Below are positions 7,715 through 55,242 of a DNA stretch of 64,000 nt, piece after piece; the first letter of the stretch is position 1; each line of letters opens with the position of its first letter. The stretch covers positions 1,550,001-1,614,000 of the forward strand of contig NZ_CP036501.1 in NCBI RefSeq assembly GCF_026230195.1, read 5' to 3'. This DNA is from Candidatus Paraluminiphilus aquimaris. GTDB taxonomy: Bacteria; Pseudomonadota; Gammaproteobacteria; Pseudomonadales; Halieaceae. Below the pieces are notes generated by a model. The model saw only the letters and a list, made by a program, of their open reading frames with translations. It did no database searches and was not told the DNA's origin. The position numbers were made by a program, and so were the translations under genes.

Positions 7715-7812
7715 ACTGTCTAAGCTTATTCTGTGTGTTTGGTTGAGTATTACTGATGGCGAATCAAGCGAAAAGGGGTAAAAGCTGGGAACGGTGTCGT
7801 TGGGTCAGTCTG

Positions 7813-7842
7813 TCACACCCTCAAACACTTTATTAGGTGTGA
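7813..7842. promoter_or_regulatory. Inverted repeat in the divergent promoter region
   Basis: TCACACC (7813-7819) and GGTGTGA (7836-7842) form a perfect seven-base inverted repeat with a 16-base gap. It sits in the 275-base region between the divergent S9 peptidase and lipoprotein genes. It could be an operator, but it is a single instance. Confidence 0.25.
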
Positions 7843-7989
7843 GATACGACCGGCCTTGGCGCTGAGAACGTTTAACCCTGGTTAGCCAGTATTCAGCGCG
7901 ATGTGCAGGAAATAGCTTCACGGTGGGGGTGCTCGAACACAACAAACATACGTTGTAAGCTAAACCGACCCTTACCGAGGCGAGTCAGT

Positions 7990-10240: not shown

Positions 10241-10468
10241 CAATACACCTTCCTTACTTTTTTACTTTTGCTACGTGTCAGACAAGTAAGCGTCGTTACC
10301 TTTGAGTAAACGACAACTCGATTCTGAGTGCCAGCGCTTTTACACTGGTAAGGCGCCCGCCTTCGGTGCTGAACGAATCAGCGCGAAATGCGTGCACGTC
10401 TGAGAAGGGACGGTGAGTGCAACTCAAAAGCGTTCAAATAACAGCCGAGGGGAGCAAAGACGAAACCA

Positions 10469-26747: not shown

Positions 26748-26754
26748 GGTGAGT

Positions 26755-26759
26755 CTCCT
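26755..26759 (-). promoter_or_regulatory. Ribosome binding site AGGAG deciding the Rieske GTG start
   Basis: AGGAG on the minus strand lies seven bases before GTG 26747. It supports the shorter 366-residue protein over a frame that continues upstream. Confidence 0.75.
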
Positions 26760-26923
26760 GTCCGCGCCTGGTGACGCTATTATTCCCTGCAATGGAGATA
26801 AACTAGGTGAAATGCGGACTTCGGTCAAAACACGAAGGCGCCGTTGCGTAGACAAAAAGGACGATGACACAAAGGTGTGTGCCAACGAGCATGGGCGCCC
26901 TAAAGTAGCCTGCGAACGCCTCG

Positions 26924-26928
26924 AGGAG
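26924..26928 (+). promoter_or_regulatory. Ribosome binding site AGGAG deciding a TTG start
   Basis: AGGAG is six bases before TTG 26935. From there the protein reads MYNEELTQFRAET, the usual start of an acyl-CoA dehydrogenase. Upstream in-frame ATG codons give an arginine- and lysine-rich leader with no resemblance to the family. Confidence 0.65.
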
Positions 26929-26934
26929 TTTGGT

Positions 26935-29464: not shown

Positions 29465-30472
29465 CTAGGCGGTAGGTTCCACCAAGAACTGACTAAACCA
29501 CCGTCGAAACTTAGCAAAGGGGCCGTCACCATCGCAGAGTAACGGACGTTCAAAGTATTGCTTTCGATCCCAAATAATTTGATCTTCAGCCATTTGCTGG
29601 CAGATATTGCCGATAATGGCTTGTCCGACAGTTTTCCCGAGTGTTTCCTGTGTGGCCCGCGGTTGAATAAAGGCGTAGGAAGCATAGGTTTTTTCAGGCC
29701 CTACGGGCGTCACATTAGCGAGCAGCAGGGTATCGTAGATTCCTGTAAACCGAACGACGGAGAGTCCTGCACCTTGACTGCGGGTTTCGATGGCACCGTC
29801 GACCACACCGCGAGGCGTTGGTTGGCGAGTGATGAACTTTCCCTCTCGGATATGACCGTCGAAGTTTTGAAACGCGGCCTCTGGTACATCGTCCGTGCCA
29901 TGAACATAGTGAAAATGAGCAGCATCTACGGCGTTTTCGCCCATTTCCTGCATGTGCGTATTGATATCCCAGGTATGGATAATCATCTCGCCCCAGTCAG
30001 GGTGATTGGCTGCCGCCTCGGGGATGACCTCGGGTTCCCAGGTTGGGGCTTCTTTCTTCGGGTGATACCAAACAAGTATTTGCTGATTAACTTCACGAAC
30101 ATCCCAAGCCCCAAGGATCGTCTCTCCCTTGGCAACCCGTGGCGGCATATTCTTGGCATAGGGGATGTGGGTGCATTGACCCTCACCATTCCAGCGCCAG
30201 CCGTGAAAGGGGCACTCAATACTGTCACCGACGATACGGGGACCTTTCCCGGTTTGCTCACGAATGCCGTAACCGAGGTGTGCGCCCATGTGCGGACAGA
30301 ACGCATCAACCACCTTTGGCTCGCCCGCTTCAGTGCGAAAAACCACCAATTCTTGCCCAAAGTATTCAACGGGAATTGCGTCGCCCACCGCTAACTCGTG
30401 GGAGTACAGTACTTGAAACCAACCCATCGGCATGGGGAGTGGACATCTGGGGGTATCGGTCGCAATCATCAT
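29465..30472 (-). CDS. Rieske non-heme iron oxygenase (KshA/Neverland-like clade)
   Basis: A 335-residue oxygenase component. The Rieske cluster ligands are in AFCPHMGAHLGYG and IECPFHGWRWNGEGQC. The catalytic iron motif is D-x2-H-x4-H in ENAVDAAHFHYVHG (about residues 172-185). This ENxxDxxHFxxVH pattern is the one shared by 3-ketosteroid 9alpha-hydroxylase KshA and the cholesterol 7-desaturase Neverland/DAF-36, as I recall it. A role in hydroxylating a steroid-like ring is plausible but not proven. It is divergent from an acyl-CoA ligase gene, with a 195-base promoter region between. No reductase gene is nearby. Confidence 0.85.
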   Translation of the reverse strand: MMIATDTPRCPLPMPMGWFQVLYSHELAVGDAIPVEYFGQELVVFRTEAGEPKVVDAFCPHMGAHLGYGIREQTGKGPRIVGDSIECPFHGWRWNGEGQCTHIPYAKNMPPRVAKGETILGAWDVREVNQQILVWYHPKKEAPTWEPEVIPEAAANHPDWGEMIIHTWDINTHMQEMGENAVDAAHFHYVHGTDDVPEAAFQNFDGHIREGKFITRQPTPRGVVDGAIETRSQGAGLSVVRFTGIYDTLLLANVTPVGPEKTYASYAFIQPRATQETLGKTVGQAIIGNICQQMAEDQIIWDRKQYFERPLLCDGDGPFAKFRRWFSQFLVEPTA

Positions 30473-39954: not shown

Positions 39955-41106
39955 TTAACGCGCCGTATGTCGCGAAATATACTCGCCAAACTGGTCTTCG
40001 ATACCCGCGGCTGTGAAACCATAATCTGCTAACTGGTAATGGTGCTCGGGGCGGTTCTCGCGCGCATTCATATCTCGCCAACGGGCCATTTCCGTTAGCG
40101 CCCCTTCGGTTAGCGTTTGCCCCGTGAATTCATAGATCCGCCGAATCGTCGCTTCAGGGTCGCTCACTGAGTCTTGGAACCACAGGTCTAAATAGTGATG
40201 GTCATGGCCGTTGTCGCGGAACTCCCGAGTCTTGGCGAGGCCGACCTGCCACTTATTTGCCCAATGTTGGGCCATGGCAACAGGGTCGAGCTTGTCGGTA
40301 AAGGGTGACGCCAGAGCTGACATCATGCTGCCGTACGAGGGGATGACCTCGAGCGGGTGGCGGTGAGTTTGAATCACTACCGCATCGGGGAATCGTGCAA
40401 AAAGATGTTCAGGGTAGTGAAGGTGATGCGGTGTTTTTAAGAGCCAGCGCCTGCCGGTTAGCCCTTTTCTTCGTTTCTGCCACTGTAAGAACTGCAGCTG
40501 TAGGTAGAGATAGTTGTAGCCGGCAGATTGATCTTGGTTGTAAAGGTTGTCGCCGTACTTAGGCATGAAGCCATAACATTCAGGAACGGTGCTCATGAAG
40601 GCATGCTCGAGCAGCATGATCTCTTCATCAGCAGCAACAGGGTCCATAGGGTGGATGGCTGCAAGTTCAGGTGAAGCCTCCAGCATGGCAGCGACTTCTG
40701 CCTGAGCAATTGGAATTCGATCGTCTTCTTGCTCAAAGTCGTCGTTGAGCGGACTCGGTTGGCGAACTTCATACCAAAGCGGTGCGAGAAGTTGGTCATC
40801 AGCGGCAATGCTTCGGTGCAACATCGTCGTACCTGTGCGAGGAAGTCCGATCACAACAATGGGGCTGAGAATTTCCTCTTCTAGAATCTTGGGATAGCGC
40901 TCAATCCATTGCTCAAGTCTAAGTCGATTTGCGAGCAAATCTATCAAACGAGCCGCATGGAACTGTCTGCCAATCTCGTTAAGGGCGGCCTCGGTATTTA
41001 GTCCCTCGATCAGGGATTCGAAGAGAGGTAAGAAACGCAGATCGCTGAATGCTGAAGCGTTCGCCACTTCCAGCGCCTTGGTTACGAGTTGATCAGTATT
41101 TAGCAC
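39955..41106 (-). CDS. Sulfotransferase (PAPS-dependent, Sulfotransfer_3-like)
   Basis: A 383-residue cytosolic enzyme that would transfer sulfate from PAPS to a hydroxyl group. The 5'-phosphosulfate loop is visible as PIVVIGLPRTGTTMLH (about residues 101-116). The 3'-phosphate motif is in HRHPLEVIPSYGSM, where the arginine and serine are seven residues apart. The remainder is the alpha-helical domain of the Sulfotransfer_3 family. The start GTG 41106 is preferred; an in-frame ATG 60 bases earlier lies inside the preceding gene. It is the last gene of the DUF1214 operon, and a sulfatase and an alkylsulfatase-like gene lie 8-10 kb away. Confidence 0.88.
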   Translation of the reverse strand: MLNTDQLVTKALEVANASAFSDLRFLPLFESLIEGLNTEAALNEIGRQFHAARLIDLLANRLRLEQWIERYPKILEEEILSPIVVIGLPRTGTTMLHRSIAADDQLLAPLWYEVRQPSPLNDDFEQEDDRIPIAQAEVAAMLEASPELAAIHPMDPVAADEEIMLLEHAFMSTVPECYGFMPKYGDNLYNQDQSAGYNYLYLQLQFLQWQKRRKGLTGRRWLLKTPHHLHYPEHLFARFPDAVVIQTHRHPLEVIPSYGSMMSALASPFTDKLDPVAMAQHWANKWQVGLAKTREFRDNGHDHHYLDLWFQDSVSDPEATIRRIYEFTGQTLTEGALTEMARWRDMNARENRPEHHYQLADYGFTAAGIEDQFGEYISRHTAR

Positions 41107-41125
41107 AATCTGGTCCCCATGGGAT

Positions 41126-42577
41126 TTACAGCTCCGATGCGCTCTGAGCCGTGTCGTTAGAGCCACTGTTGAGCGTTCTTAGCCTCGCGGTTGGCGCCGG
41201 TGCCTGATCAGATAGTAAATATCGTATCGCCACCAACCCCTCTGACGCACCGCCGGTATTGAGCCAGTCCTCACCTTCTGGCGGTGGAGTATCGCTAATC
41301 CAAACACGATAGTTACCTTGTCGGTTTGTGATTTCACTGCCCTTGAGCGAGGCGGGTTCTCCATTAGACTCGATAGACTGCATCCAATGGTCTTGTAAGG
41401 TGATACTCCAGAAGGCGGCCACAGGTACTTCGCCCTCAACAACGAGGGCGTCACCCGGCGCGAGCGAGAAAGAGCCGCCGTGGTAGTCATTGTCGGGCGT
41501 CGGATAAAAAATGCCGACGAAATCCGGAGACACGGTAGCGGGACGATCAAAACTATTCGTTGTTTCTTTGAGTGCGTCTGCAAGTGCAAGACTGCCTTGC
41601 CAAGTCTGATTGAAAAAGTTCACAGCGTTCTCTGCGCGCGTTTCAAAGGAGGTAGCGTCCTGACCAGGGGTGCCTGTCTGAGTTATTAATCCTGCAATAG
41701 AGGTAGCCGAGGTTCTCAAGCGTTTAATTGTGAGTCTCGAAGGCTGGCGAGGCTCTGAGTCAAAAAAATACTCCCGAACCATGATCAGGTGACTGCTAGC
41801 ACTGAGCTTCAGTGTCGCTTGCTGGGAGTTTGACCCTATGTTCCGCATCCGAAAGCCTGAAACGTCGTCGTGGGAAAGGATAGATAACGCACTTTCTGCT
41901 CCCTCTGATATTTCTGTACTTCCTGCGCTCTCTCCCAAAACAGTATCTAATTTCTTGCTCTGAGACGTCTTGTCACTCGATTCGCTGGTCAACCGGATGC
42001 GGAATACGCTGTTTTCTGCATCGGGGACGATACTGGTACTGTCCGCTGCGCGATTCCACCCGATGATGGGATTACGCTCATAAACAACGAACCCTAGATA
42101 GTCGGCGGACCCTGTGGTTATCGCTACCTCGTACTCCCCATCAGCTTCGATTGGCGCTGTTGAGTAAATGGCATCAGGGCTGTCCCCCAAGAATTTTCGA
42201 TAATCACTCATCCAGTTGGTGAATTCTGGCTGTAACGGGTCCCCTTTGGCGATATGCATCTCCACTGATGCTGCCAACAACCCACCTAGGTAGTCATAGG
42301 CTTTCCCTAGCGAGGCTTCTGAAGCTTTCGGATTACGCTCACGGATGGCGTTTGCCGCATGCTCGAGACTAATCGATAAATCACTTATTTTTATGGCAGC
42401 AGCCGAGCCCAGAGCCCAGCTCATATCCGGTCGACTGATCGTATCTCGTGCGTTAAAGGTGCCTAGTGCGTAACTGACCGACGCCACAATAAGTATGGCC
42501 GCAATGACACTTGCCAGCCGACCGAGGCGCCTGGTCATGAAGGTTCGGGCGTGAGGTGCGGATATCTCCTGGGTCAT
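41126..42577 (-). CDS. DUF1214 protein with N-terminal membrane anchor
   Basis: A 483-residue protein. Residues about 15-40 (RLASVIAAILIVASVSYALG) look like a membrane anchor or uncleaved signal. The rest ends in a DUF1214 domain recognisable by FSLAPGDALVVEGEVPVAAFWSITLQDHW and EDWLNTGGASEGLVAIRYLL. The function of the family is unknown to me; the beta-rich fold and conserved W residues could bind sugars or other ligands. It starts four bases inside the previous DUF1214 gene (ATGA) and ends 19 bases before the sulfotransferase start. It is the second of three DUF1214 proteins in the window. Confidence 0.8.
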   Translation of the reverse strand: MTQEISAPHARTFMTRRLGRLASVIAAILIVASVSYALGTFNARDTISRPDMSWALGSAAAIKISDLSISLEHAANAIRERNPKASEASLGKAYDYLGGLLAASVEMHIAKGDPLQPEFTNWMSDYRKFLGDSPDAIYSTAPIEADGEYEVAITTGSADYLGFVVYERNPIIGWNRAADSTSIVPDAENSVFRIRLTSESSDKTSQSKKLDTVLGESAGSTEISEGAESALSILSHDDVSGFRMRNIGSNSQQATLKLSASSHLIMVREYFFDSEPRQPSRLTIKRLRTSATSIAGLITQTGTPGQDATSFETRAENAVNFFNQTWQGSLALADALKETTNSFDRPATVSPDFVGIFYPTPDNDYHGGSFSLAPGDALVVEGEVPVAAFWSITLQDHWMQSIESNGEPASLKGSEITNRQGNYRVWISDTPPPEGEDWLNTGGASEGLVAIRYLLSDQAPAPTARLRTLNSGSNDTAQSASEL

Positions 42578-43659
42578 GCGCTAGCGTCCGAAGCGTGGAT
42601 GACTCGGGTGGTCGGATTTACGGGGTCTTTGCAGCCCACCCATCGGAAGCAGAGTGTGCCCTCCACGTGACCGCCGGTGCTGAGCCAGTTTGCGTGTCCG
42701 CTGTCTTTCACTGCGATGTGTATATCAACTGACCCGTCAACCTTAACGCTGGCTGTGTGTCGGTTGATTGAAATCTTGTGATATCGGTAGTCGAGAGACT
42801 CCATCCAGTAGTTATCAACTTGCAGGTTCCAGGTCTGGCACTCGGGAACAGAGGGGAGTGTCACAATCATGACCTCATCCGAATTCAGACGAAAATGACC
42901 ATGGTAGTAAATGATATTGGGATCTCCACCCACAGCTTGGCAAAAAGCCTGATCCCAAAGTGGGAGACTATTTGGGTTCTCCCGGATTTCTTTACTCCAC
43001 TGTGAAAACAAACCGACTGTATTGCGATAAAAGGCCATCGCCTTGTCGAAGTCGGCTGTGACTTTCTCTTTGCTTAAGGGAGAAGGTATCGCCGTCGTAT
43101 CAACCCGATGAATCTGTATATCAGCCGATGTCTCAAGCGATCGGTCTAAAAAGGTCTGACGAATCAGCAGTGATTCGGATTCTGTATCCATGGCTAGCCA
43201 GTTGCCCGACTGCTCGTTGGCGCTAAGGATGATCTCGAAGTTGCCCTCAGCGTCGATCTCAATCGTATTGCTGTCGAGGAACCCCGTTTCGATTTGTTTG
43301 AAATTCTCTGCGTAACTGCCTTTGCTCGTCGCAAAGCTGATGTAGTCGATCGATCCGCGTTTTCCCGTCAGCCGGTATTCAAACCGACCGTCGATAACGG
43401 CTTTTTGGTAGATATTATCGGGGTTGTCGGCGCCTAACTTAATAGTTTCATGCGCGGGTTGGTAAAGCACCGGGAATGCCGCGTCGTTGAATTCCACGTA
43501 CCACTCCAGCGCGGCTCGTGCCATTCGGGACAAATAACGCAATCCCTCCGCCTGGCTTTGCTCGTCCTGAGGGACGTGATCCTTTGTCAGCTCTTGTCCT
43601 GCCACTTTTAGTGTGTCGCAGAAGGCATCCCATGTGGCAGCCATATCGTTAGCGGCCAT
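42574..43659 (-). CDS. DUF1214 protein without signal peptide
   Basis: A 361-residue protein with the DUF1214 C-terminal domain (IIYYHGHFRLNSDEVMIVT, then WNLQVDNYWMESLDYRYHK and GHANWLSTGGHVEGTLCFRW). No export signal is visible, unlike the neighbour that follows. The start is ATG 43659, with AAGGAA seven bases upstream; a longer frame reaching 43719 would overlap the SnoaL-like gene. It ends in a four-base overlap (ATGA) with the anchored DUF1214 gene. The two tandem paralogues, one soluble and one anchored, are likely to act together, perhaps in different compartments. The reaction is unknown. Confidence 0.8.
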   Translation of the reverse strand: MAANDMAATWDAFCDTLKVAGQELTKDHVPQDEQSQAEGLRYLSRMARAALEWYVEFNDAAFPVLYQPAHETIKLGADNPDNIYQKAVIDGRFEYRLTGKRGSIDYISFATSKGSYAENFKQIETGFLDSNTIEIDAEGNFEIILSANEQSGNWLAMDTESESLLIRQTFLDRSLETSADIQIHRVDTTAIPSPLSKEKVTADFDKAMAFYRNTVGLFSQWSKEIRENPNSLPLWDQAFCQAVGGDPNIIYYHGHFRLNSDEVMIVTLPSVPECQTWNLQVDNYWMESLDYRYHKISINRHTASVKVDGSVDIHIAVKDSGHANWLSTGGHVEGTLCFRWVGCKDPVNPTTRVIHASDASA

Positions 43660-43669
43660 ACGACTTTCC

Positions 43670-44179
43670 TTATTGTTCAGTGACCAAACCTGGCGCGCTG
43701 CCGATTTGTTCGATTGCAACGACGCCCTCAGCAGACGAAAGAAATAGGTTGGACATCAACGTGTACTTGGAGACGCGCATTTTCCACTCGCCATTAACTC
43801 TAGCGTACTCATCTTCGTAGTAACCGCTCATCAGCTGCACTTGCTTTTGCTCGGTCTCCAGCAGTTGGAATCGCATCCGCCAGCGACCTTTCGCTGTATC
43901 CGGCCCCGTCATCTCAATTTCAGGGGCTGTGCCGTGGTGCATGTCAACGTGTGTGGGGTGGCAGGCGAGTGACTCGAAGACGCCGATGAAGGCGTCCATG
44001 TCAGTGAATTCACCGATGAATCCAAAATCGATAAGGAAATCATCTTCGTCGTAACAGCTGCGCATCCCTGCAAGATCACGCGTATCACAGGCGAACCACC
44101 ACCGTGCTTTGAGCCGCTTTATGGCCTCAATGTCTTCGAGTGCTTGGACCCTTAAAGCGAGATCAGTTGCTGCAGACAC
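43670..44179 (-). CDS. SnoaL-like (NTF2-fold) protein
   Basis: A 169-residue protein of the SnoaL_4/NTF2-like group, with the N-terminal helix LEDIEAIKRLKARWWFACDTRD and the beta-strand GYYEDEYARVNGEWKMRVSKYTL near the end. The fold includes ketosteroid isomerase, scytalone dehydratase and ring-hydroxylating beta subunits. KSI catalytic residues cannot be confirmed. It starts at GTG 44179, two bases after the ADC-like gene ends, and is followed ten bases later by a DUF1214 gene. A related SnoaL-like gene is at 62476-63117, next to the 3-ketosteroid dehydrogenase-like gene. Confidence 0.8.
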   Translation of the reverse strand: MSAATDLALRVQALEDIEAIKRLKARWWFACDTRDLAGMRSCYDEDDFLIDFGFIGEFTDMDAFIGVFESLACHPTHVDMHHGTAPEIEMTGPDTAKGRWRMRFQLLETEQKQVQLMSGYYEDEYARVNGEWKMRVSKYTLMSNLFLSSAEGVVAIEQIGSAPGLVTEQ

Positions 44180-44181
44180 GG

Positions 44182-44955
44182 TTATTTCCCGGGCGCACCA
44201 TTAACACCGGGCCATCGTGAGCCAGAAATGGTGTCTGCGAAGGGCAGGAATGCCTCGGGATCAAGCGGTTTTGATAATGTGACAGAACGATCCAAGAAGA
44301 TTGGCCACCACAGGTAGGCCGATAGCTGCTCACGCATAGGCAGCTTGCTGGCCAGGGGATCCCATGGACTGTCGCGCAACACTAGCTGGCCTTGTACGTT
44401 CTCTTTCCACGCAGTGCCATATTTGCTGGCCACGTGGACCACGTGGGGAGGGAAGTCGTAGCCTGTCGCAGGGCCACCAATGCTGACCGCGCGGGAAACC
44501 TTAATCCACCACTCATTTTGCACGAATTCGTCACCAGTATCGGTTGGTCCTTCGCTCATGCCGTCAAATTCGAGGAACGTATAGCCTTGGTGTGTGCACT
44601 TTGCTCGGACCATAGGACCCAAGCGGTGATAGTCAATTTCGCAGGGGTATTTAGGCTGACCATTCGTCTCTTGTGAGATAAAAATGGCCGACTCCTGATC
44701 GATGCCGTAGCCGAGTGTGAATTCACCTTCGACGCCATCAAAATCCGCATTAACAGTGGTTACAACGCCGTACTCGGGTACGTCTGGAACCGGGAAATTG
44801 TAAACAGTCAGGTTTACGTTTGGCTCTTTGCCCACCGTGATACCGGGCGGCAAGAGCGCGGCGATTGCCTCAGGATCAGTACGGTAGTGAACCTTAAGCA
44901 TTGGCCAATTAATAATATCGCCTGGTGCGCCCATTGGGGCTTGTGCGTCACTCAT
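44182..44955 (-). CDS. Acetoacetate-decarboxylase-family protein
   Basis: A 257-residue protein of the ADC-like fold. The start MLKVHYRTDPEAIAALLPPGI and the middle VYNFPVPDVPEYG match the family. The Schiff-base lysine region is seen in SQETNGQPKYPCEID, where the usual PKK is PKY, so the first lysine is kept and the modulating second lysine is not. Family members decarboxylate beta-keto acids or act as retro-aldolases. A different substrate from acetoacetate is likely, given the neighbours. AAGGA lies eight bases before the ATG. It begins a five-gene block that ends with the sulfotransferase. Confidence 0.8.
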   Translation of the reverse strand: MSDAQAPMGAPGDIINWPMLKVHYRTDPEAIAALLPPGITVGKEPNVNLTVYNFPVPDVPEYGVVTTVNADFDGVEGEFTLGYGIDQESAIFISQETNGQPKYPCEIDYHRLGPMVRAKCTHQGYTFLEFDGMSEGPTDTGDEFVQNEWWIKVSRAVSIGGPATGYDFPPHVVHVASKYGTAWKENVQGQLVLRDSPWDPLASKLPMREQLSAYLWWPIFLDRSVTLSKPLDPEAFLPFADTISGSRWPGVNGAPGK

Positions 44956-45040
44956 AGTGTTGTTCCTTCTTATCGTTCTTTTAGAATTTTTGTCACTGTA
45001 CGGACTGGTTTTATCTGCGCTTCATAGGTTTAGCGGGCGA

Positions 45041-45925
45041 TCAACCCACCGATTCGGGCACCGGCGTCGTTTTATTAATAATCATATCGGCTCGGCGCTG
45101 AACCTTCGCCATACTCTCTTCAGTATGTGCCAGGAGCCAAAAGTTACCATCTGGAATTCCGGCAAGCGCCATCTCAGCGACTTCGTCGGGATGCGTTGTC
45201 TTTAGGTCGAAGCCAAATTCCTCGGCCATTCGTTTCATGTCCTCAACGGAATTGATTCCCGTTTCGTTTCCGGTCACACCCTTATCGAACTCTTCAGGCC
45301 GCACTCGACCTGAGTTGAATAAACCCGTTTCCACGACGTGTGGGCCAGGGAATAGCGCGCTTACCACGACGGGTAATCCACCCATTTGCACTTGGTAGTG
45401 CAGGTTCTCAGTGATGGTGTGGACCGCCGCCTTGGTTGCTGTGTAGATGGGAACATCGGGTAGGACGGTGTAAGCGCCGTTGCCCGAGCCGGTAATGATG
45501 ATATGAGTACGCTCGGGGCGTGTAATCAGGTAGGGCATAAATACGCTGATACTGTTTACCGCCCCCCAAAGATTAACGTTAAAACACCATTGCCAGTCTT
45601 TTTCAGAGAACCCCCAAATCGGGCCGGCTTCACCCGCTCCGATACCGGCGTTGGCGAAGACAAGATCCACCTTCCCAAACGTTTCGAGGGAGGCATCGAG
45701 AAGCGATTGAAGACTCGCCTTGTCGGTGACGTCACAGCGTTCAATTCGATTGGAAATGCCCTCACTGGACAGATCCTTTGCCATTGATTCCATGGCACTT
45801 GCGTCCACATCGCCAATGACTACGTTGGCACCTGCGCGACCCAGTCCAAAGGCAAGCGAGCGTCCTACACCGCTAGCGCCACCCGTGATGACGGCCGTTT
45901 TCCCTTCGTAATACTCGTTGCTCAT
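45041..45925 (-). CDS. SDR-family oxidoreductase (classical, YTATK)
   Basis: A 294-residue SDR. Cofactor motif TGGASGVGRS, D-V-D after the second strand (VVIGDVDASAM, suggesting NAD), NAG (FANAGIG), the serine in TGSGNGAYT and the catalytic YTATK are all visible. The extended C-terminal region (about 50 residues beyond a 250-aa SDR) contains the helix HPDEVAEMALAGIPDGN. The ATG overlaps the stop of the upstream Rieske gene by four bases (ATGA), so the oxygenase and the dehydrogenase are translationally coupled. It would be suited to act on the alcohol made by that oxygenase. Confidence 0.87.
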   Translation of the reverse strand: MSNEYYEGKTAVITGGASGVGRSLAFGLGRAGANVVIGDVDASAMESMAKDLSSEGISNRIERCDVTDKASLQSLLDASLETFGKVDLVFANAGIGAGEAGPIWGFSEKDWQWCFNVNLWGAVNSISVFMPYLITRPERTHIIITGSGNGAYTVLPDVPIYTATKAAVHTITENLHYQVQMGGLPVVVSALFPGPHVVETGLFNSGRVRPEEFDKGVTGNETGINSVEDMKRMAEEFGFDLKTTHPDEVAEMALAGIPDGNFWLLAHTEESMAKVQRRADMIINKTTPVPESVG

Positions 45926-46887
45926 TGCTGACCCCGCGGGCTTTCTGGTAGGTAAAATTGTCTTACCCATTTTCTAAAGAGCACGAGTGTCTCGTCGCCT
46001 TTGCAGAAGATGGGTTGTTTCCTGTGCACCTTGTTTTCCCAAATAGGGTAGTCATCGGACAGGCCTTCAATAATGCCGTCCATGACTTGATCGCCTACAA
46101 ACTCGGCGATTTCATTGCGAACAATAAGCGTCCAGCGCAGAAGCGTTTCATTGCGCGAAATCGGTTGGGCTGAGTTGTAAACCAGCATTTCAGCACCGGG
46201 ACCATAGCTCGTCATGACCCGTGCCAAACCGGGCTGGAACATCGTTGCGTGGAGATCGCCTTTCATACCTTGTGCTTCGATTTCTGAGCGAAGGTGAACG
46301 GCCCCGTCGTCCTCTACCTCAACAGAGGAGGGCGGTGTCTGATTTTGCTTGTGAACGTATTGGAAGTGCTCGGGGTCGCAGGAGTTTTCAGCAATATCCT
46401 GTATGTGAACAGGAATGTTGAACTCGACTTGGCGCGGCTCCGTCCAATGCTCATCGCCAATCTGCTCAATGATAGGCACTTCGCGGTCGGGGTCAGCGCC
46501 TGTGGGATGGAACCACATGTAAATTTCGCCATTGACCTCGCTGACGGGCCAATTTTGTACCTTCGCGCGGGAGGGAATCGTCTCGCAGTAGGGGATGTGG
46601 TTGCACTTCCCGTCACCGCCGAACTGCCAACCGTGGAAGGGACACTGGATAGACTCGCCAACGACTTTACCGTTTACACCCAAATGCGCGCCGAGGTGCG
46701 GGCAAAAGGCGTCATGCACGCGTGCCTCACCGGAGTCTGTTCTGTAAACAACGAGTTCACGATCCAGCGCACTAACGGACTTTACATCGCCTGGCTCGAG
46801 TTCATGGCTTCTCGCCACTGACCACCAGCCAATAGGGAAGTCAGGCGCAGTATTTGTTTTTGAATCACAGACAGCAATGAGTTCCAT
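45922..46887 (-). CDS. Rieske non-heme iron oxygenase (third copy)
   Basis: A 321-residue oxygenase component. The Rieske cluster is in AFCPHLGAHLGVNGK and IQCPFHGWQFGGDGKC, and the catalytic iron motif is D-x2-H-x4-H in AENSCDPEHFQYVHK (about residues 164-178). It belongs to the same clade as the 29465-30472 protein, with the shared opening PIGWWSVARSHELEPGDV like MGWFQVLYSHELAVGD. The gene starts 30 bases after the amidohydrolase stop, with AAAGGA nine bases before the ATG, and couples to the SDR that follows. An electron-transfer partner is not encoded here. A polycyclic substrate is inferred from context. Confidence 0.87.
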   Translation of the reverse strand: MELIAVCDSKTNTAPDFPIGWWSVARSHELEPGDVKSVSALDRELVVYRTDSGEARVHDAFCPHLGAHLGVNGKVVGESIQCPFHGWQFGGDGKCNHIPYCETIPSRAKVQNWPVSEVNGEIYMWFHPTGADPDREVPIIEQIGDEHWTEPRQVEFNIPVHIQDIAENSCDPEHFQYVHKQNQTPPSSVEVEDDGAVHLRSEIEAQGMKGDLHATMFQPGLARVMTSYGPGAEMLVYNSAQPISRNETLLRWTLIVRNEIAEFVGDQVMDGIIEGLSDDYPIWENKVHRKQPIFCKGDETLVLFRKWVRQFYLPESPRGQQ

Positions 46888-46917
46888 GTGAGTTAAATCC
46901 TTTCTTTTTGTTTTTGA

Positions 46918-48135
46918 TTAAGCCGCAAATATATCCTTGGACGGTCCAATATTGGCGGCAAGGCCATCAAGGTAGGCTCGGTCGAGTCCGTAGAACTCGA
47001 TGGCATTACCGCCCAAAATCTTGCGTCCTGCTTCCGCGTCAAATCCTTTGAACGTATCGAGATAGTATTGGGCTGTGTTTGGCCACGTGCCTTCTGGGTG
47101 TGGGAAGTCGCTGCCCCACATGATTTGCTCAAGGCCGATTTGATCTCTCATATCGAGGTCTCGTCTTGGCACACACGACGCGCCAATACCGCAATTACGT
47201 GCGAAGTATTCACTCGGCGCCATAGAGAGGTGTGATCGGAAATCGCCCAGCTTTGCCGAGAACTGAATGTCCGTGTAGTTGTGATCGAGGAGCATCAGCC
47301 AAGAGGGCACCATAAACATTGTGCCGCCCTCGACTACCATGGCCTTGAGGCGAGGGAATCGCTCGAATACACCGCCCCAGAGCATGAAGGTCAACGGCCG
47401 ATAGAGCCAGAACATGACCTCTGAGACATAAGCGCCCATGGCCCCGGGCAACTCCGCGCTTCGGTCTTCATTGGGGAATGCGGGGCCGAAGTACTCATTG
47501 TGTGGCGCCGGTCCCGAATGGAAGTGGATAACAATGCCCAGATCTTCGCAAATCTCCCAAAATGGATCGTATTTGATGTCGTGGTACGCCGCATGCTCGC
47601 CCCACATCGTTGGCAACATAACGCCTTTGAGGCCGTTCTCGTGACACCATCGTGCCGCGTCAACAGCTTGTTGAACGTCGAAAAGAAGCGGAATTGAGGC
47701 TACGCCAAAGTGTCGCTTGGGGTCATTCTCGACCAGCTCGGACAGCCAGCGGTTGTGTGCCATGGCACCCGCCCACTGAAGCTCAGGCACGGCGTCTTTG
47801 GGCGATAAGCCAAGTCCTGCACCAAACGGTGGCGTGTTTTGCTCTGTAATACCGTCAGGGAAGATGATCTCGGCCGCGATGCCATCTTTCGCCAGCATCT
47901 TGTGCCGCTCGCTGTATTCCCAAGCACCGGTAAGCTCCTGCTGAATGGGTGCTCGCCACTCATCGTTGATCTCTTTGATGAGAAACTGTTGTTCAGCCTT
48001 ATCCATCATGTCGATCTGTACGTCGACAGCCATGTCGATGAAGTCGTGATACTTCGAATCGACATAGGGTTTGTATTGAGCAATCGGCAGTCCGGCGTGG
48101 CAGTCCGTGGAGACGACGGTTAAACGGTCAGTCAT
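46918..48135 (-). CDS. Amidohydrolase-superfamily protein (Amidohydro_2)
   Basis: A 405-residue TIM-barrel protein of the group that includes 2-amino-3-carboxymuconate-6-semialdehyde decarboxylase and other metal-dependent decarboxylases and hydrolases. The first metal motif reads VSTDCHAG, one H rather than the common DxHxH. IHFHSGPAP and the late IMWGSDFPHPEG provide the other ligands. AGGA lies five bases before the ATG. It is the first gene of the eight-gene minus-strand run (amidohydrolase to sulfotransferase) and may decarboxylate or hydrolyse a ring-derived acid. A precise role is not readable. Confidence 0.8.
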   Translation of the reverse strand: MTDRLTVVSTDCHAGLPIAQYKPYVDSKYHDFIDMAVDVQIDMMDKAEQQFLIKEINDEWRAPIQQELTGAWEYSERHKMLAKDGIAAEIIFPDGITEQNTPPFGAGLGLSPKDAVPELQWAGAMAHNRWLSELVENDPKRHFGVASIPLLFDVQQAVDAARWCHENGLKGVMLPTMWGEHAAYHDIKYDPFWEICEDLGIVIHFHSGPAPHNEYFGPAFPNEDRSAELPGAMGAYVSEVMFWLYRPLTFMLWGGVFERFPRLKAMVVEGGTMFMVPSWLMLLDHNYTDIQFSAKLGDFRSHLSMAPSEYFARNCGIGASCVPRRDLDMRDQIGLEQIMWGSDFPHPEGTWPNTAQYYLDTFKGFDAEAGRKILGGNAIEFYGLDRAYLDGLAANIGPSKDIFAA

Positions 48136-48328: not shown

Positions 48329-49705
48329 TCATTGAAGCTTTTCAAGCTCGCTGTCCAGCCAATAAAGCTCGTAGTCATTGCCCAGCGGCTCAGCTTGCTG
48401 CTTGAGTTGTAGCAGTGTCTGTGTGCGCAGCGCTCTGAGTGTCTCTGAAGCCCTACTTCCCTCGAGCAACTCAAGTAGCAGTAGCGCTTTTTCGGGCTGT
48501 GCGTCATTCAAATAGGTTCGTACCTGTAATTGGGCCGCCTCAAGGTCGATGAGCCTAGCGACATCGGCCAAAATGGCGCGCTGAGAAGTGGGGTATAGCT
48601 CGCTAGTACGATCAAAGTGAAACCAAGTCGCGTAGTACTCCCAAATCGATTTAACCGCCCAACTGACCTTCCCGTGAGATTGTGACAACGTTAAGTCTTT
48701 AGGCAATGCAATTTCCGCCATGACGGTTTCGAGCGAATAGCCTGCATTCATGCCAGCCACGGTCTCGTCATGAACGTATTGCACTGCATCGCGAATTTTC
48801 CGCATATCAGCTGCGATGTTTTCTGCGCCCCTAATCGGTGCAAGGTGGCTGGGTAGGATCACTTCTGGCTCAAGAGCGAGGAGCGTGTTGAGGGACGCGA
48901 TGTACTCAATGGGTTTGCGGACCTTCTCGCCCCGCATCGTAAAGATGTTGGGAAATTGCGGAAACTGAGGACCGAAAAAATCGCCCGAGAGCAGTATTTT
49001 TTCATCGGGTAACCACAGAACAACGTTGTCTGCCCCCTCGGCTCCCGGCATTGCGTGTACTTCAAATCGTCTGCCACCAAGCGAAAAACGGTAGGGCTCG
49101 CCATTACGCACCCGCGTATCGGGAATAAGCCCTCGAAAGTTCATGCCTACAAGCGTGCGGGGTGACTCAGGAATCCACGGAAATAAGACCCTATTTCTTT
49201 GGTGGAGGTAAGGATTGAGCTCCGTTAGATAGCGCTGTTCCTCTTCAAATTCCTCATGCGCGATTAGTTCGGCTTGACCACGGTCCCAGAGCCGTGTGCC
49301 ACCGACGTGGTCTGCATGGCTGTGGCTTAGAATGATCTTTTGGGGCTCTGCATCGCCAATCAGGGCTTTTAATTTTGTCACCTGCTCGCTGGCCTGAATA
49401 ATCAGTCCTGTATCGAATATGACGTTGCCATCACGGGTTGTTACGGCGAAGGAGTTACCAACGCCCGATGCTTGGAAAATCCCACTTGCCACTTCAGTAA
49501 CGGATATGGGGAGCGTAATGAGCTCGGCCGCAGCAAGGCCACGCTCGTTGTTCTCGGCAACGAGGGATGACATGTTTGACACGGCTGCCTGGCCCGCGAA
49601 ACGCGTAACCGTCTCCCGGACCGCTTGCTCGAGGGTATCGCGCTCTGTAACAGCCGCGATCAAGGCAACGGCACTCAAACTGACTAAAAGATTTCTTCGC
49701 CGCAT
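48329..49705 (-). CDS. Alkylsulfatase-like metallo-beta-lactamase-fold protein
   Basis: A 458-residue exported enzyme. The hydrophobic start RRRNLLVSLSAVALIAAV suggests a signal or anchor. The zinc motif HSHADHVGG (about residue 132) opens the MBL domain, and GDFFGP gives the late metal aspartate. The C-terminal region, SHGKVSWAVKSIWEYYATWF and following, resembles the dimerisation domain of type III alkyl/aryl sulfatases (SdsA1/Pisa1). It is therefore more likely to hydrolyse a sulfate ester than a beta-lactam. ATG 49705 is preferred over GTG three codons upstream. It faces the arylsulfatase gene across a 116-base divergent promoter region. Confidence 0.7.
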   Translation of the reverse strand: MRRRNLLVSLSAVALIAAVTERDTLEQAVRETVTRFAGQAAVSNMSSLVAENNERGLAAAELITLPISVTEVASGIFQASGVGNSFAVTTRDGNVIFDTGLIIQASEQVTKLKALIGDAEPQKIILSHSHADHVGGTRLWDRGQAELIAHEEFEEEQRYLTELNPYLHQRNRVLFPWIPESPRTLVGMNFRGLIPDTRVRNGEPYRFSLGGRRFEVHAMPGAEGADNVVLWLPDEKILLSGDFFGPQFPQFPNIFTMRGEKVRKPIEYIASLNTLLALEPEVILPSHLAPIRGAENIAADMRKIRDAVQYVHDETVAGMNAGYSLETVMAEIALPKDLTLSQSHGKVSWAVKSIWEYYATWFHFDRTSELYPTSQRAILADVARLIDLEAAQLQVRTYLNDAQPEKALLLLELLEGSRASETLRALRTQTLLQLKQQAEPLGNDYELYWLDSELEKLQ

Positions 49706-49706
49706 A

Positions 49707-49810
49707 CTGTTCACTCTTGTTCTTGGCAGGCTAATCTGTGGCCGTTCGCCAAATCATCGTTAATGGCATCGACAGGCGACAGAGTAAAAAACAAGAATAA
49801 GCGAGAATAG
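49707..49810. repeat. Imperfect inverted repeat of 19-base arms around the sulfatase promoters
   Basis: The plus-strand arm CAAGAATAAGCGAGAATAG (49792-49810) and the minus-strand arm CAAGAACAAGAGTGAACAG (49725-49707) match at 15 of 19 bases. Each arm lies near the start of one of the two divergent sulfatase-type genes, pointing in the direction of its gene. The arms are purine-rich, so part of the match may come from ribosome-site composition. Confidence 0.4.
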
Positions 49811-49821
49811 GAAGGTGCAAT

Positions 49822-51441
49822 ATGGTCCGAATAGGGGCCTTCGCGCTGCTCTTTAGCGCGACATTCGTATCCCTTGTGGCTGCGGCGTCTGAGCGACCCA
49901 ACGTGATCGTAATGGTGGCGGATGATCTTGGCTGGGCCGATGTCGGATTCCATGGAAACCCGATTATTGAGACACCCGCACTGGATCGGATTGCCGCGGA
50001 GGGCGTGCAGCTCAACCGTTTTTACACAACGCCCATATGTTCACCCACTCGTGCGGCATTGATGACGGGTCGGGATCCCATTCGATTGGGCGTGGCCTAT
50101 TCAACCATTATGCCCTGGCAAAATAACGGTATTCATCCCCAAGAGACCTTTCTTCCCGAACTGTTCCTCGGTGCCGGTTACCAAACGGCTATGGTGGGTA
50201 AGTGGCATTTGGGACACGCGCAACAGACGTATCACCCGAACTCTCGGGGTTTTGAGCATTTTTATGGCCACCTGCACACGGAAGTCGGGTTTTTCCCGCC
50301 GTTCGCAAGCTTAGGCGGGAAGGACTTCCAGCGAAACGGGGTGTCAATCGACGATCAGGGCTACGAGAGCTACCTACTTGCAGAAGAGGTCAGTCGCTAC
50401 ATTTTGGAAAGAGACCCTGAGAAGCCTTTTTTCATTTATATGCCGTTTATTGCGCCTCACACACCGCTTGATGCGCCTGATGAATTAAAAGCCAAGTACG
50501 CAGATATGGGGGACGACCGCGGTAAATCACGGAGTGAGCGGGCCGATCAAACGCGATTTATGGCAAAAATAACCGGCCGCGAGAGCGCGCGGCCCATGTA
50601 TGCCGCGGTCGTCGACGGCATGGATCAATCCATTGGTAGAGTCCTGGACACGCTGGATGCTGAGGGACTTGCGGACAACACCATCGTACTGTTCTTCTCC
50701 GACAATGGTGGTGCTGTTTATGCCACCGGTGGGGCTGACAATGCGCCACTTAGGGGCGGCAAGGGCGATACCTTTGAGGGTGGCATCCGCGTCGTGGCCG
50801 CGATGCGCTGGCCTGAGAAAATTATCGCGGGAGGCCAGGTCAATTCGATTATGTCGGTGATGGATGTTTTACCGACATTGCTTGCTGCCGCAGGAATCGA
50901 ACCCATTACACGTTATCGATTGGATGGCCGAAATTTACTCCCCGCCATCGTTGAGGACGAAGCCTCGCCCAGAGAGCGGTTGTTATTTTTTATTGCCGAG
51001 TCGCCTTTTAAAAATACGGTCAATGTCACGGCGTTCAATGATGAGTGGAAACTGGTACAGCGGATCGAGACAGGGTTTAGCTCAGTAGAAGTCAGTAACT
51101 TTCTTTTTGATATCAACACTGACCCCAATGAATACACGAACCTTGCATCAGAGCATCCCGATATAGTCGATGAACTGGCCAGAGAGATTCGTCACTGGCG
51201 TAATCTGTATCCGGTTGCCGGTACGCGCTCCGAGCTCATGCCACCGCCTGGGTGGAGGGCGCCGCTGGATTGGGCGCGTTATCCGCTACAAAACAGTGCC
51301 CTGCAGGATAAAGCGTCGGGAGGCATGCCACCTGAGAGTGCGATCAGGGTGCTCGATTGGCAGTACGGCGAAAATGGGCGTCTCATCTACAACTGCGAGC
51401 CGTACCGTTGGGCTGGGGGCGGTTTGTGCAAGGGTCAGTGA
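49822..51441 (+). CDS. Arylsulfatase (FGly-type sulfatase), exported
   Basis: A 539-residue sulfatase with a signal peptide ending near LVAAAS. The catalytic formylglycine motif C-x-P-x-R is C73-S-P-T-R77. Metal aspartates are D34-D35 (MVADDLGWAD), with GKWHLGH and SDNGG later in the chain. Maturation needs a formylglycine-generating enzyme or an anaerobic SME encoded elsewhere. AGGAAGG lies six bases before the ATG. It is divergent from the alkylsulfatase-like gene and near a sulfotransferase, so sulfate esters appear to matter to this locus. The natural substrate could be an algal or steroid sulfate. Confidence 0.92.
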   Translation: MVRIGAFALLFSATFVSLVAAASERPNVIVMVADDLGWADVGFHGNPIIETPALDRIAAEGVQLNRFYTTPICSPTRAALMTGRDPIRLGVAYSTIMPWQNNGIHPQETFLPELFLGAGYQTAMVGKWHLGHAQQTYHPNSRGFEHFYGHLHTEVGFFPPFASLGGKDFQRNGVSIDDQGYESYLLAEEVSRYILERDPEKPFFIYMPFIAPHTPLDAPDELKAKYADMGDDRGKSRSERADQTRFMAKITGRESARPMYAAVVDGMDQSIGRVLDTLDAEGLADNTIVLFFSDNGGAVYATGGADNAPLRGGKGDTFEGGIRVVAAMRWPEKIIAGGQVNSIMSVMDVLPTLLAAAGIEPITRYRLDGRNLLPAIVEDEASPRERLLFFIAESPFKNTVNVTAFNDEWKLVQRIETGFSSVEVSNFLFDINTDPNEYTNLASEHPDIVDELAREIRHWRNLYPVAGTRSELMPPPGWRAPLDWARYPLQNSALQDKASGGMPPESAIRVLDWQYGENGRLIYNCEPYRWAGGGLCKGQ

Positions 51442-51635: not shown

Positions 51636-52886
51636 ATGTCTGGTTGTCCGTTTACCCATCCGCTTGACCTTGATGCGTATCGTTCTGGTATGCCCTATGA
51701 GGCACTCGCTGCTGCGCGTCAAAAAGGAAGCTTTGTCCGGTATGAGGACCCCGCGACGGGTGTTCCCTATTGGGCCGCGGTGAAACGAGATGCGCTGGAT
51801 TTTGTTTCACAGAACCCTGCGCTGTTCTCATCGCAAACGGAAGGTCCTTTCCCCATGGAACCACCGGACGAGACCGCGCGCGAAGTCACCAAAATCATGA
51901 ATGACAACAGTTTCATTGCGATGGATCCGCCTAATCACGTCACGCATAGACGCGTTGTGAAAGACGCGTTTACACCTAAGGCTGTGGCTGCCATGGAGCC
52001 ATGGCTTCGTGAGCAGGCGAAGAATATTATCGATCGCGTCGCACAGCGCGGTGAGTGTGAGTTTGTCGAGGAGGTGGCGGCTGAATTACCCTTGATGGCG
52101 ATCCTAGAGCTTTTAGGTGTGCCACTTGAAGACCGCGCGCAGTTCTTTAAATGGACCAATACCATGGCATTCGCCGATGACCCAGATGTCGCAGGGGGTA
52201 TGGAGGACGCGCAAACGGCCTCGTTTGAAGTCATGATCTACGCCGCTGAGCTTGCCCAGAAACAACGCCAGGGTTTTACTGGCCCGATTATCCAAGCGCT
52301 CCTCGAGGGCGAAATAGACGGTCAACCCATTACCGATGACATGTTTTCATGGGTGTTTATTCTGCTGATGGTTGGCGGCAACGAAAGCACGCGGACTGCC
52401 ATTGCGCATGGTTTGAGGCTGCTCATGGAAAACCCAGATCAACTGCAGCATCTTGTGGACCATCCTGAAGATATTGCGGCTGCCGTTGAGGAAATGCTGC
52501 GCTACAACACAGCGTTCATTGCCATGCGTCGGACCGCCACGCAGGACATTGAGTGGCAGGGCTATCGATTCAAAAAGGGCGACAAGATCGTCATGCACTA
52601 CCACTCGGTGAATCATGACGAAGACGTGTTTGGCGATGACGCGCTCACCTTTGATATTCACCGGATGAAGCGCATGCCAACGCTCAATCGCGAGATTCGC
52701 TCCTTTGGTATTGGCCAGCACTTTTGTCTGGGCATTAACCTTGCGCGACTTGAAATGCGCATCATGTTTGAGGAGTTGCTGCCGCGCCTGAGGAACCCGC
52801 GACTAGCGGGCGATATTACCTATATGCGATCGTTCTTCATTTCGACAATCAAAGCGATGCCGATCGAATTTACACCGGAGCCTTAG
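51636..52886 (+). CDS. Cytochrome P450
   Basis: A 416-residue soluble bacterial P450. It shows the I-helix LLMVGGNESTRTAI, the ExxR motif EEMLR and the heme-binding FGIGQHFCLGINLARLE with its cysteine at about residue 363. The N-terminal MSGCPFTHPLDLDAY has no membrane anchor. It resembles the CYP125/CYP142 and terpenoid-hydroxylating types by architecture only; the substrate is not readable. AGAGGG precedes the ATG. Its ferredoxin and reductase are not in the window. An SDR gene follows 72 bases downstream in the same direction, suited to oxidise an alcohol made by the P450. Confidence 0.92.
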   Translation: MSGCPFTHPLDLDAYRSGMPYEALAAARQKGSFVRYEDPATGVPYWAAVKRDALDFVSQNPALFSSQTEGPFPMEPPDETAREVTKIMNDNSFIAMDPPNHVTHRRVVKDAFTPKAVAAMEPWLREQAKNIIDRVAQRGECEFVEEVAAELPLMAILELLGVPLEDRAQFFKWTNTMAFADDPDVAGGMEDAQTASFEVMIYAAELAQKQRQGFTGPIIQALLEGEIDGQPITDDMFSWVFILLMVGGNESTRTAIAHGLRLLMENPDQLQHLVDHPEDIAAAVEEMLRYNTAFIAMRRTATQDIEWQGYRFKKGDKIVMHYHSVNHDEDVFGDDALTFDIHRMKRMPTLNREIRSFGIGQHFCLGINLARLEMRIMFEELLPRLRNPRLAGDITYMRSFFISTIKAMPIEFTPEP

Positions 52887-53754: not shown

Positions 53755-55053
53755 CTAGCCACCAAAGCGCTCATGAACTGCTCTGCGCCTGACCTGAACC
53801 GCGCTGCGTCGCTCCTTGGGTGATACCTTGGGAAGGTTCTCAATGTAAGTGGCTAACTCTTCAGGGGATAACACGCGCGTCCGTGGCTGATCTGCTTTAG
53901 TAGGTGGTGAGTCAAGACCCTGCCACCGCATAAAAATGAGCCCCTCATTATGGCCCGCCGGATCTAGCCAGTTTGCAACACCCGGATCCTCGAGTGAGAT
54001 CAGTGCATAACAGCGGCTCTCGTCCTCACGACATCCCAACTGATTCATATTCAGGGTGCTCGTGTGGTTCTCGTAATCCATACTGACGAACCACCGATTG
54101 CCTAATTGAATCCCCATGTAAGGCGCGCCAGTATCTCCAAATTCAATGAGCATGGTCTCTTCAGGGGCGAGCTTGAAGTTGCCGAAGGCTGAGTATTGAC
54201 CAACCAGACCACCCGGGGTTACCCGCATATTGAAAATAGAGTTATTGGGAACCAGCGACCACATGCGATCGGCGATTGCGATCCAGCTCGCGGTTCGATC
54301 GTACATGGACTGTGAGGTGCGTTTTAAACCGGCAGCCAACGAGGCTTCCGTTAACGGTGCGGGAGGCTCTCCATCGGTATCGAGGCGTTCGATGTACAAA
54401 GGGTCAATGCGCTCGGTTTCCCAATTGGAGTGCGTGAATCTGACTAATAGCGACTCGGCCCCCGGTGCATTTTTCATCCAGTTTTTGGCGTCATCGGGCC
54501 GCTCAGGGCTGACTATAATCTCAAAATTGCCCTCTTCATCGAGGACGAGGTCTTCGTCATACAGCACATCGACATTGGTGCTGGAGCCTGCGTTACCCAC
54601 TCCTGGGACACCAATAACCAGCTGAAAAATGAGCTGAGTGGTATTGCCGCGCTTTCCATGAAGCCGATAACTACCTTCGTCGTCGAGCAGAGCGAAAAAG
54701 TAGTTATTATCGGGATTGTCGAGACCTGCCTTACTGGTCCAGTCGACACCGCGCATAGCGCGAGGGTATTCATGCGACATCAGCGCCCCCGATTTGATGG
54801 AGCCCACAATGGTGTACAGGACGCCGCGATAGGCCTCTGCCGCCGCTAAGGGATCGTCAAAATTTTCATGAGCTTTGTAAAGAGCCAAGGTATCGCGTTG
54901 AGCCTGAATAAACTCCTCGAAGGCAGCATCCATAGGATTCGAGGTATCTACTGTTTGTGCATCGAATCGTGGGGCAGGGGCCGTAAATCGGCCTGCGGTG
55001 AACCCCGCTGCGGTAACCGCTATGACAACGAGTAAAAGGGCAATTTTCTTCAC
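53755..55053 (-). CDS. DUF1214 protein, exported or membrane-anchored (third copy)
   Basis: A 432-residue protein with the N-terminal segment VKKIALLLVVIAVTAAGFTAGRF, a signal or anchor. The C-terminal DUF1214 domain is recognisable in FGNFKLAPEETMLIEFGDTG, GIQLGNRWFVSMDYENH and GVANWLDPAGHNEGLIFMRW. GTG 55053 is chosen as start, with AGGAG six bases upstream. The frame runs upstream another 58 codons. It converges on the P450-linked SDR and is divergent from an OYE gene, not part of the other DUF1214 operon. The function is unknown. Confidence 0.8.
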   Translation of the reverse strand: MKKIALLLVVIAVTAAGFTAGRFTAPAPRFDAQTVDTSNPMDAAFEEFIQAQRDTLALYKAHENFDDPLAAAEAYRGVLYTIVGSIKSGALMSHEYPRAMRGVDWTSKAGLDNPDNNYFFALLDDEGSYRLHGKRGNTTQLIFQLVIGVPGVGNAGSSTNVDVLYDEDLVLDEEGNFEIIVSPERPDDAKNWMKNAPGAESLLVRFTHSNWETERIDPLYIERLDTDGEPPAPLTEASLAAGLKRTSQSMYDRTASWIAIADRMWSLVPNNSIFNMRVTPGGLVGQYSAFGNFKLAPEETMLIEFGDTGAPYMGIQLGNRWFVSMDYENHTSTLNMNQLGCREDESRCYALISLEDPGVANWLDPAGHNEGLIFMRWQGLDSPPTKADQPRTRVLSPEELATYIENLPKVSPKERRSAVQVRRRAVHERFGG

Positions 55054-55242
55054 GGTCGACTCCTGTGCCGTTAGAGGTTCTCTGTGCGATACCAGCGGAT
55101 GGCATAGGACGGTGTCGGAAAGAGAGCGGGGTGTCCAGCCGAGCTCCTTAAACACTTTTTCATGACTCATTGCGCCAAATGCTGCCGATAGGAACATGGA
55201 GGTTCGGCTGAACTGGTCGTCCTGCATTACCCGCAGTAATTA
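55054..55242 (-). other. Open frame upstream of DUF1214, possibly a gene remnant
   Basis: The same frame as the DUF1214 gene is open for about 62 codons before its GTG start, after a stop at 55240-55242. It includes HEKVFKELGWTPRSLSDTVL, which resembles the tail of NAD-dependent epimerase/dehydratase proteins (a common ELGWxPR pattern). It may be a relic of a lost neighbour or chance. Confidence 0.25.
55060..55064 (-). promoter_or_regulatory. Ribosome binding site AGGAG deciding a GTG start
   Basis: AGGAG on the minus strand is six bases before GTG 55053 and supports the signal-peptide-bearing start of the DUF1214 protein. Confidence 0.75.

Follow-up and report, generated by a model that had tools for sequence, protein, structure and literature searches.

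Why does a catabolic operon carry a sulfotransferase, and why does this enzyme sit beside a protein of the DUF1214 family? The question is posed by a run of eight genes on the minus strand of a 64,000-nucleotide stretch (hereafter the window) of the Candidatus Paraluminiphilus aquimaris genome (contig NZ_CP036501.1, positions 1,550,001 to 1,614,000). The core of this run is a unit of two proteins: a soluble DUF1214 protein, D1214a (proteins of its type are abbreviated D), and an STF1-type sulfotransferase (abbreviated S). The chances are even, in our estimation, that the two form a sulfonation module, dependent on 3'-phosphoadenosine-5'-phosphosulfate (PAPS) and set in a steroid-catabolic locus, in which D1214a acts next on the sulfate ester. 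The eight genes, in 5'-to-3' order, are:

46918 to 48135, minus strand: amidohydrolase (Amidohydro_2); top solved relative DitZ
45922 to 46887, minus strand: Rieske oxygenase with KshA_C domain; top solved relatives 3-ketosteroid 9alpha-hydroxylases
45041 to 45925, minus strand: short-chain dehydrogenase/reductase (SDR); ATG 45925, ATGA overlap with the Rieske gene
44182 to 44955, minus strand: acetoacetate-decarboxylase-like protein (Pfam family ADC); solved relatives weak only
43670 to 44179, minus strand: SnoaL_4 protein; top solved relative BaiE (bile acid 7alpha-dehydratase)
42574 to 43659, minus strand: D1214a, soluble DUF1214 protein that forms the core together with the sulfotransferase; ATG 43659
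41126 to 42577, minus strand: D1214b, diverged paralogue of D1214a whose N-terminus has a hydrophobic segment; accessory insert, judging by gene order in relatives
39955 to 41106, minus strand: STF1-type sulfotransferase (Sulfotransfer_3); GTG 41106 preferred

The eight-gene run and its two-protein core

A preliminary description of this DNA had proposed an eight-gene minus-strand run with these families, gaps of -4 to 85 bases and two ATGA overlaps, and assignment of gene families together with refinement of the starts (SDR to ATG 45925, D1214a to ATG 43659) bears it out. With the best starts, the successive gaps are 30, -4, 85, 2, 10, -4 and 19 bases, both -4 overlaps being ATGA (Rieske/SDR at 45922-45925, DUF1214/DUF1214 at 42574-42577). 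The start of the sulfotransferase gene is uncertain: GTG 41106, which gives the gap of 19, is probable and preferred; GTG 41166 would create an overlap of 41. Neither promoter-like sites (9 against 8.0 expected) nor terminator-like sites (6 against 11.0) stand out above shuffled sequence, and the claim of co-transcription therefore rests on spacing and conservation. The predicted conservation of gene order is there: among 36 loci of relatives (mostly Halieaceae/Luminiphilus-type metagenome-assembled genomes), the order amidohydrolase-Rieske-SDR-ADC-SnoaL-DUF1214 is kept in 12, with the amidohydrolase cut by a contig end in two of these (L020 and L028; loci are numbered with the prefix L). Such recurrence means that the order is not due to chance. 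The remaining 24 loci are shortened by contig ends or, mostly in distant species, do not have the order. The nearest relative, L003 (MED611), has the entire run at 93-100% protein identity. The run is real and conserved in Halieaceae.

The pairing of D with S was surveyed in 60 D loci of the order (Pseudomonadales), hand-picked from about 150 places among the matches listed: 40 near rank order and 20 lower-ranked, the places left out of the first 40 picks lying mostly near contig ends. That DUF1214 might recur beside Sulfotransfer_3 had been raised at the outset, and the outcome is strongly positive: 54 of the 60 loci have S on the strand of D and no more than 300 bp away (D before S in 44, S before D in 10), as detected with D and S profiles that were built from the same loci (69 and 55 sequences) and of which the S profile favours its own subfamily; several loci of the sample are closely related to one another (L065-L069; L086 and L087), and the contigs of L021-L025 and L027 come up again in L065-L069 and L074. 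The median gap is 52 bp between profile bounds. Twenty control regions, placed at round-number positions in 14 of the same genomes, contain neither D nor S. In the 36-locus set of relatives, 5 loci are cut off; of the 31 that extend far enough, 26 contain the pair, with D1214b between its members in 6, and L006, L029, L030, L034 and L037 do not. In L122 the two are fused in one 797-residue protein that scores above both the DUF1214 and the Sulfotransfer_3 cut-offs, and the fusion gene directly follows a gene for adenosine-5'-phosphosulfate (APS) kinase (7361-10376). Further fusions, suspected from long frames in L149-L152, were not clearly such on checking: D and S are adjacent or overlapping in L149, L150 and L151, and L152, at a contig end, shows no S. 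The trees of D and S agree (Mantel r 0.59 for 58 pairs, against a maximum of 0.28 in 2000 permutations), and, for pairs within the same genome, D and S mostly share their outside neighbours, L110 and L103 being among the exceptions.

The preliminary description placed its weight on a translationally coupled soluble and anchored pair of DUF1214 proteins. The close relatives shift that weight onto D1214a. Of the 16 Halieaceae-type loci with sequence past D (L003-L006, L008, L009, L011-L017, L019, L020 and L028), D1214b stands between D and S in six (L003, L004, L005, L009, L013 and L016), while D is followed directly by S in nine, which rules out the twin as the key feature; L006 has D alone, without the operon. 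On this comparison of gene orders, D1214b, which is probably anchored, is a lineage-specific accessory insert. The L006 gene (6117-7208) encodes a close D1214a homologue (80%) standing alone in 15 kb, with neither operon nor S, through relocation or misassembly.

Both operon copies pass the DUF1214 (PF06742) gathering score of 25 bits, D1214a with 30.2 and D1214b with 29.2. The D profile separates them, at 575 bits for D1214a and 135 for D1214b, and gives 216 to a third copy in the window (53755-55227; 490 amino acids by the longest frame), which has the D family's conserved stretches and an N-terminal hydrophobic segment, and no Pfam match: Pfam misses part of the DUF1214 family. The predicted structure of D1214a (predicted local distance difference test, pLDDT, 90) finds its best fold match in 6ANS, an uncharacterised protein of Burkholderia cenocepacia whose entry names no function (48% identity, template modelling (TM) score 0.94). 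Candidate active-site residues, invariant or nearly so in 75 D sequences, are D81, Y95, R101, R167, N283, E287, D290, Y291, N324, H331 and R339.

The window S is a family member by score (Sulfotransfer_3 127.7 bits, cut-off 27), one of five matches in the whole genome. Its predicted structure (pLDDT 92) has as nearest folds, by Foldseek, STF1 (2zq5) and STF9, then CurM, tyrosylprotein and OLS sulfotransferases and retinol dehydratase. Every one of 46 S sequences compared keeps G87, R90, G92, R249 and S257, presumably the residues that bind PAPS (5' loop and 3' phosphate). A source of PAPS accompanies part of the D loci: 18 of the 60 contain APS kinase, which is joined by ATP sulfurylase in 13 and by CysD/CysN in 2 and stands alone in 3 (L065-L069, which make up five of these 18, are closely related), and the 20 control regions contain no APS kinase, ATP sulfurylase or CysD/CysN. 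In L103, genes for D, S, APS kinase and ATP sulfurylase (D-S-CysC-Sat), all Pfam-confirmed, succeed one another on one strand; L031, L036 and the Tsukamurella plasmid L061 are further cases of PAPS supply.

The steroid-catabolic setting

What the D-S unit might act on is indicated by the genes around it. All three KshA_C Rieske genes of the genome fall inside the window. The operon copy scores above cut-off in both domains (79.4 bits for Rieske, 100.3 for KshA_C), and KshA is its top solved relative (3.4e-42); it may act at a position other than 9alpha. Relatives of HsaA, HsaC, HsaF, HsaG and FadD3 are encoded 14 to 22 kb beyond the right end of the window (L145, L146), where an alpha/beta hydrolase takes the position of HsaD. 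The FadD3 relative reaches 669.6 bits against an NCBIfam cut-off of 657; the HsaF/HsaG relatives pass theirs (aldolase 526 against 286, acetaldehyde dehydrogenase 436.6 against 282.25) with models that are not steroid-specific. The HsaA and HsaC relatives, at 289.5 and 306.9 bits, remain under curated cut-offs of 450 each, these being still their best or only named families; the HsaC cut-off is passed by none of 194 genomes of the order. The locus resembles those of 9,10-seco steroid degradation (KshA, HsaA-D, HsaF/G, FadD3), with KshA_C in the window and the Hsa/FadD3 relatives just outside, and differs from them in these sub-threshold HsaA and HsaC scores and unspecific HsaF/HsaG models. Judged by gene content, the operon belongs to a steroid-catabolic locus of this genome. 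Steroid degradation is reported for sponge Halieaceae isolates in a passage of PMC5790920.

The SnoaL protein has BaiE as its best solved relative, by similarity over the NTF2-like domain (1.1e-11); the MHxG..PEI stretch, which may hold catalytic residues, aligns. DitZ, the top solved relative of the amidohydrolase, bears a name known from diterpenoid degradation. On the sphingomonad plasmids L063 (7974-9520) and L154 (8019-9616), D overlaps an NTF2-like gene with no S nearby, an arrangement that recalls the SnoaL-D1214a junction of the window.

D also tracks steroid markers. It is found (E<1e-70) in 45 of the 194 genomes; KshA_C (E<=1e-30) occurs in 41 of these 45 and in 10 of the other 149 (Fisher 7e-28, kinship ignored), and HsaC (approximately E<=1e-40; in effect E<=2e-40, with G104, at 1.2e-40, counted as positive) in 40 of the 45 and 19 of the 149 (Fisher 2e-21, kinship again ignored). 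In a sample of 299 genomes across the phylum, a D match at E<=1e-60 occurs in 3, among them the genome of the window.

A proposed sulfonation and what may follow it

On the reading preferred here, the Rieske protein and the P450 would add hydroxyls, the SDR would oxidise hydroxyls and the BaiE-like SnoaL protein would dehydrate those that are keto-activated. S would move sulfate from PAPS, in the cytoplasm, to a hydroxyl of a steroid or ring-degradation intermediate. The sulfate would then be a leaving group: its elimination by D1214a would generate a C=C double bond at the former unactivated hydroxyl, the two enzymes together accomplishing a dehydration. Of the two halves of this scheme, the putative PAPS-dependent transfer of sulfate by S to a hydroxylated steroid intermediate has the support of genomic context; elimination of sulfate is the most likely chemistry for D1214a and the less sure of the two. 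A step with sulfate as leaving group is known to exist, because enzymes of the S fold carry it out: in CurM, OLS and retinol dehydratase a hydroxyl is sulfated and the sulfate leaves in the next step. These enzymes belong to the S fold class by Foldseek, with whole-chain TM scores, by query, of only 0.30-0.37; unlike the window S, they are biosynthetic or animal enzymes, and none is known to us to work with a DUF1214 protein.

Sulfotransferases are mostly viewed as conjugating or biosynthetic enzymes; a conserved, PAPS-fed sulfonation inside steroid catabolism would, if true, be a new catabolic strategy, and the elimination step would be the first reaction assigned to DUF1214 and would account for genes in the mycobacterial cholesterol region that have no assigned role. 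A wider generalization, tentative and on the doubtful side, is that in at least two phyla bacteria employ sulfate as a disposable activating group when they break down steroids, with DUF1214 as a new sulfate-eliminating lyase: ATP sulfurylase and APS kinase would make PAPS, an STF1-type S would sulfate an unactivated hydroxyl and DUF1214 would finish the dehydration.

Among the closest known systems is Rv3531c-Rv3530c-Rv3529c of Mycobacterium tuberculosis, whose STF1 is the nearest solved relative of the window S by both sequence and fold. On the Tsukamurella plasmid L061, S is an STF1 orthologue by score (573.6 bits, 378 residues) and lies in a D-SDR-S operon beside cysC/cysD, the same functional order as in the mycobacterial segment, which belongs to the KstR cholesterol region; Rv3531c is expected, from this gene order, to be a D family member. 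The window differs in having no SDR between D and S. Rv3529c is named as Stf1 in a passage of PMC8882603, and passages of PMC1995591 put a KstR motif upstream of Rv3531c, at Rv3531c/Rv3532, in a region that is steroid-catabolic. VPA0735 and VPA0106, whose entries name no function, match D1214a distantly and align poorly (TM below 0.5). They are, we take it, of the DUF1254/DUF1214 type. The open-access literature, among the matches listed, offers no sulfotransferase step in 9,10-seco steroid degradation, which does not prove absence from print; among the matches listed, the word sulfotransferase occurs only in PMC12667688 and PMC10837461, a review on gut sterols and a study of mouse liver. No open-access paper was found to join DUF1214 with a sulfotransferase, DUF1214 appearing only in work that is, by its title, on another subject; nor was one found that treats four or more of the subjects sulfotransferase, steroid degradation, gene cluster, Rieske and acetoacetate decarboxylase.

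Several observations weigh against a coupled sulfonation and elimination. The strongest comes from plasmids: of seven loci examined among 29 matching records, four (L060, L062, L063 and L154) have D and, over 15-19 kb, no S; among the other three, L059 and L064 have S about 4 and 6 kb off, and L061 has its SDR between D and S. Six of the 60 surveyed loci have no adjacent S (L078, L083, L091, L093, L113, and L120, where S is 1.1 kb off). KshA_C is missing from 4 of the 45 D genomes and HsaC from 5, and the genome of the L122 fusion has matches to neither. Of the 48 genomes with both markers, 10 have no D at E<1e-70, from which it follows that D-S is not a core part of the steroid pathway and serves some substrates or intermediates. 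To our knowledge, no known step of steroid degradation needs sulfation; a list for M. tuberculosis predicts that Rv3531c alone, and not Rv3529c or Rv3530c, is required on cholesterol. In the window genome, the one ATP sulfurylase and the one strong APS kinase match, 71% identical to members of operon versions, are adjacent to each other at 2164-2166 kb, 570 kb off, and a PAPS-reductase-family gene is present as well, so that the distant pair need not serve the D-S module alone; a PAPS supply dedicated to the module in this genome is accordingly rejected.

The preliminary proposal was that the operon modifies and sulfates, or hides, a hydroxylated polycyclic compound. Context now points to a steroid and the sulfotransferase step is kept; hiding, that is, conjugation, becomes the chief competitor. 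Sulfation by S would solubilise a hydroxysteroid intermediate, lower its toxicity or trap it in the cell, D would be the conjugate's hydrolase, carrier or control protein, and the adjoining sulfatase and metallo-beta-lactamase (MBL)-fold genes would recover external steroid sulfates. In its favour, plain sulfation would suit D-S pairs that come with PAPS genes of their own, S has SULT conjugating enzymes among its fold matches, and the operon is flanked by sulfatase and MBL-fold genes both here and in relatives, such genes also lying beside D-S in L079. Against it, no exporter family stood out among the clustered neighbours (clusters being judged by one member's first residues), and sulfation in a catabolic operon presumably spends ATP without yielding carbon. 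On balance conjugation is possible and rather unlikely. The plasmid loci invite a different thought, namely that D and S are uncoupled neighbours, each taking its own step (for D, hydration, dehydration or hydrolysis) in one steroid or terpenoid pathway: D has no S within 15-19 kb in L060, L062, L063 and L154, shares an overlap with an NTF2-like gene in the last two, and in the window starts 10 bases after the end of the SnoaL gene. The D-S fusion, the occurrence of both gene orders and the joint descent of the pair speak against such independence, which we regard as improbable. Least credible, and very unlikely, is that S sulfates a protein or lipid or serves signalling, and has no part in small-molecule steroid breakdown. 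Tyrosylprotein sulfotransferases do figure among its fold matches, and inhibition of TLR2 signalling through MyD88 is ascribed to Rv3529c (Stf1) in a passage of PMC8882603; the association of D with steroid markers over the 194 genomes and the catabolic character of the window operon argue otherwise. Sulfonation by S, with the less certain elimination by D, is the explanation retained here.

Neighbouring genes

Other features of the window that bear on the operon are:

48329 to 49714, minus strand: MBL-fold protein with a weak alkylsulfatase dimerisation match; neighbour kept in part of the relatives
49822 to 51441, plus strand: sulfatase with an N-terminal hydrophobic segment; neighbour kept in part of the relatives
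51636 to 52886, plus strand: cytochrome P450
53755 to 55227, minus strand: third DUF1214-family protein, with hydrophobic segment, missed by Pfam
29465 to 30472, minus strand: KshA_C Rieske oxygenase
25647 to 27020, minus strand: KshA_C Rieske oxygenase, the genome's strongest KshA_C match

The MBL-fold and sulfatase genes (48329-51441) that flank the operon occupy the same place in, for example, L003, L004, L010, L011 and L018; L012, L015 and L019 have neither between the P450 and amidohydrolase genes. The sulfatase of the window carries a CSPTR motif, which we take to be of the formylglycine type. Two acyl-CoA dehydrogenase genes of the window (26710-29246) overlap by 4 bases, and the pair presumably resembles the heteromeric steroid acyl-CoA dehydrogenases. 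Three DUF3604 genes lie in or near the steroid locus (window 8321-10243 and 58114-60033; L145 2700-4712), and DUF3604 also adjoins D in L070, L083 and L120.

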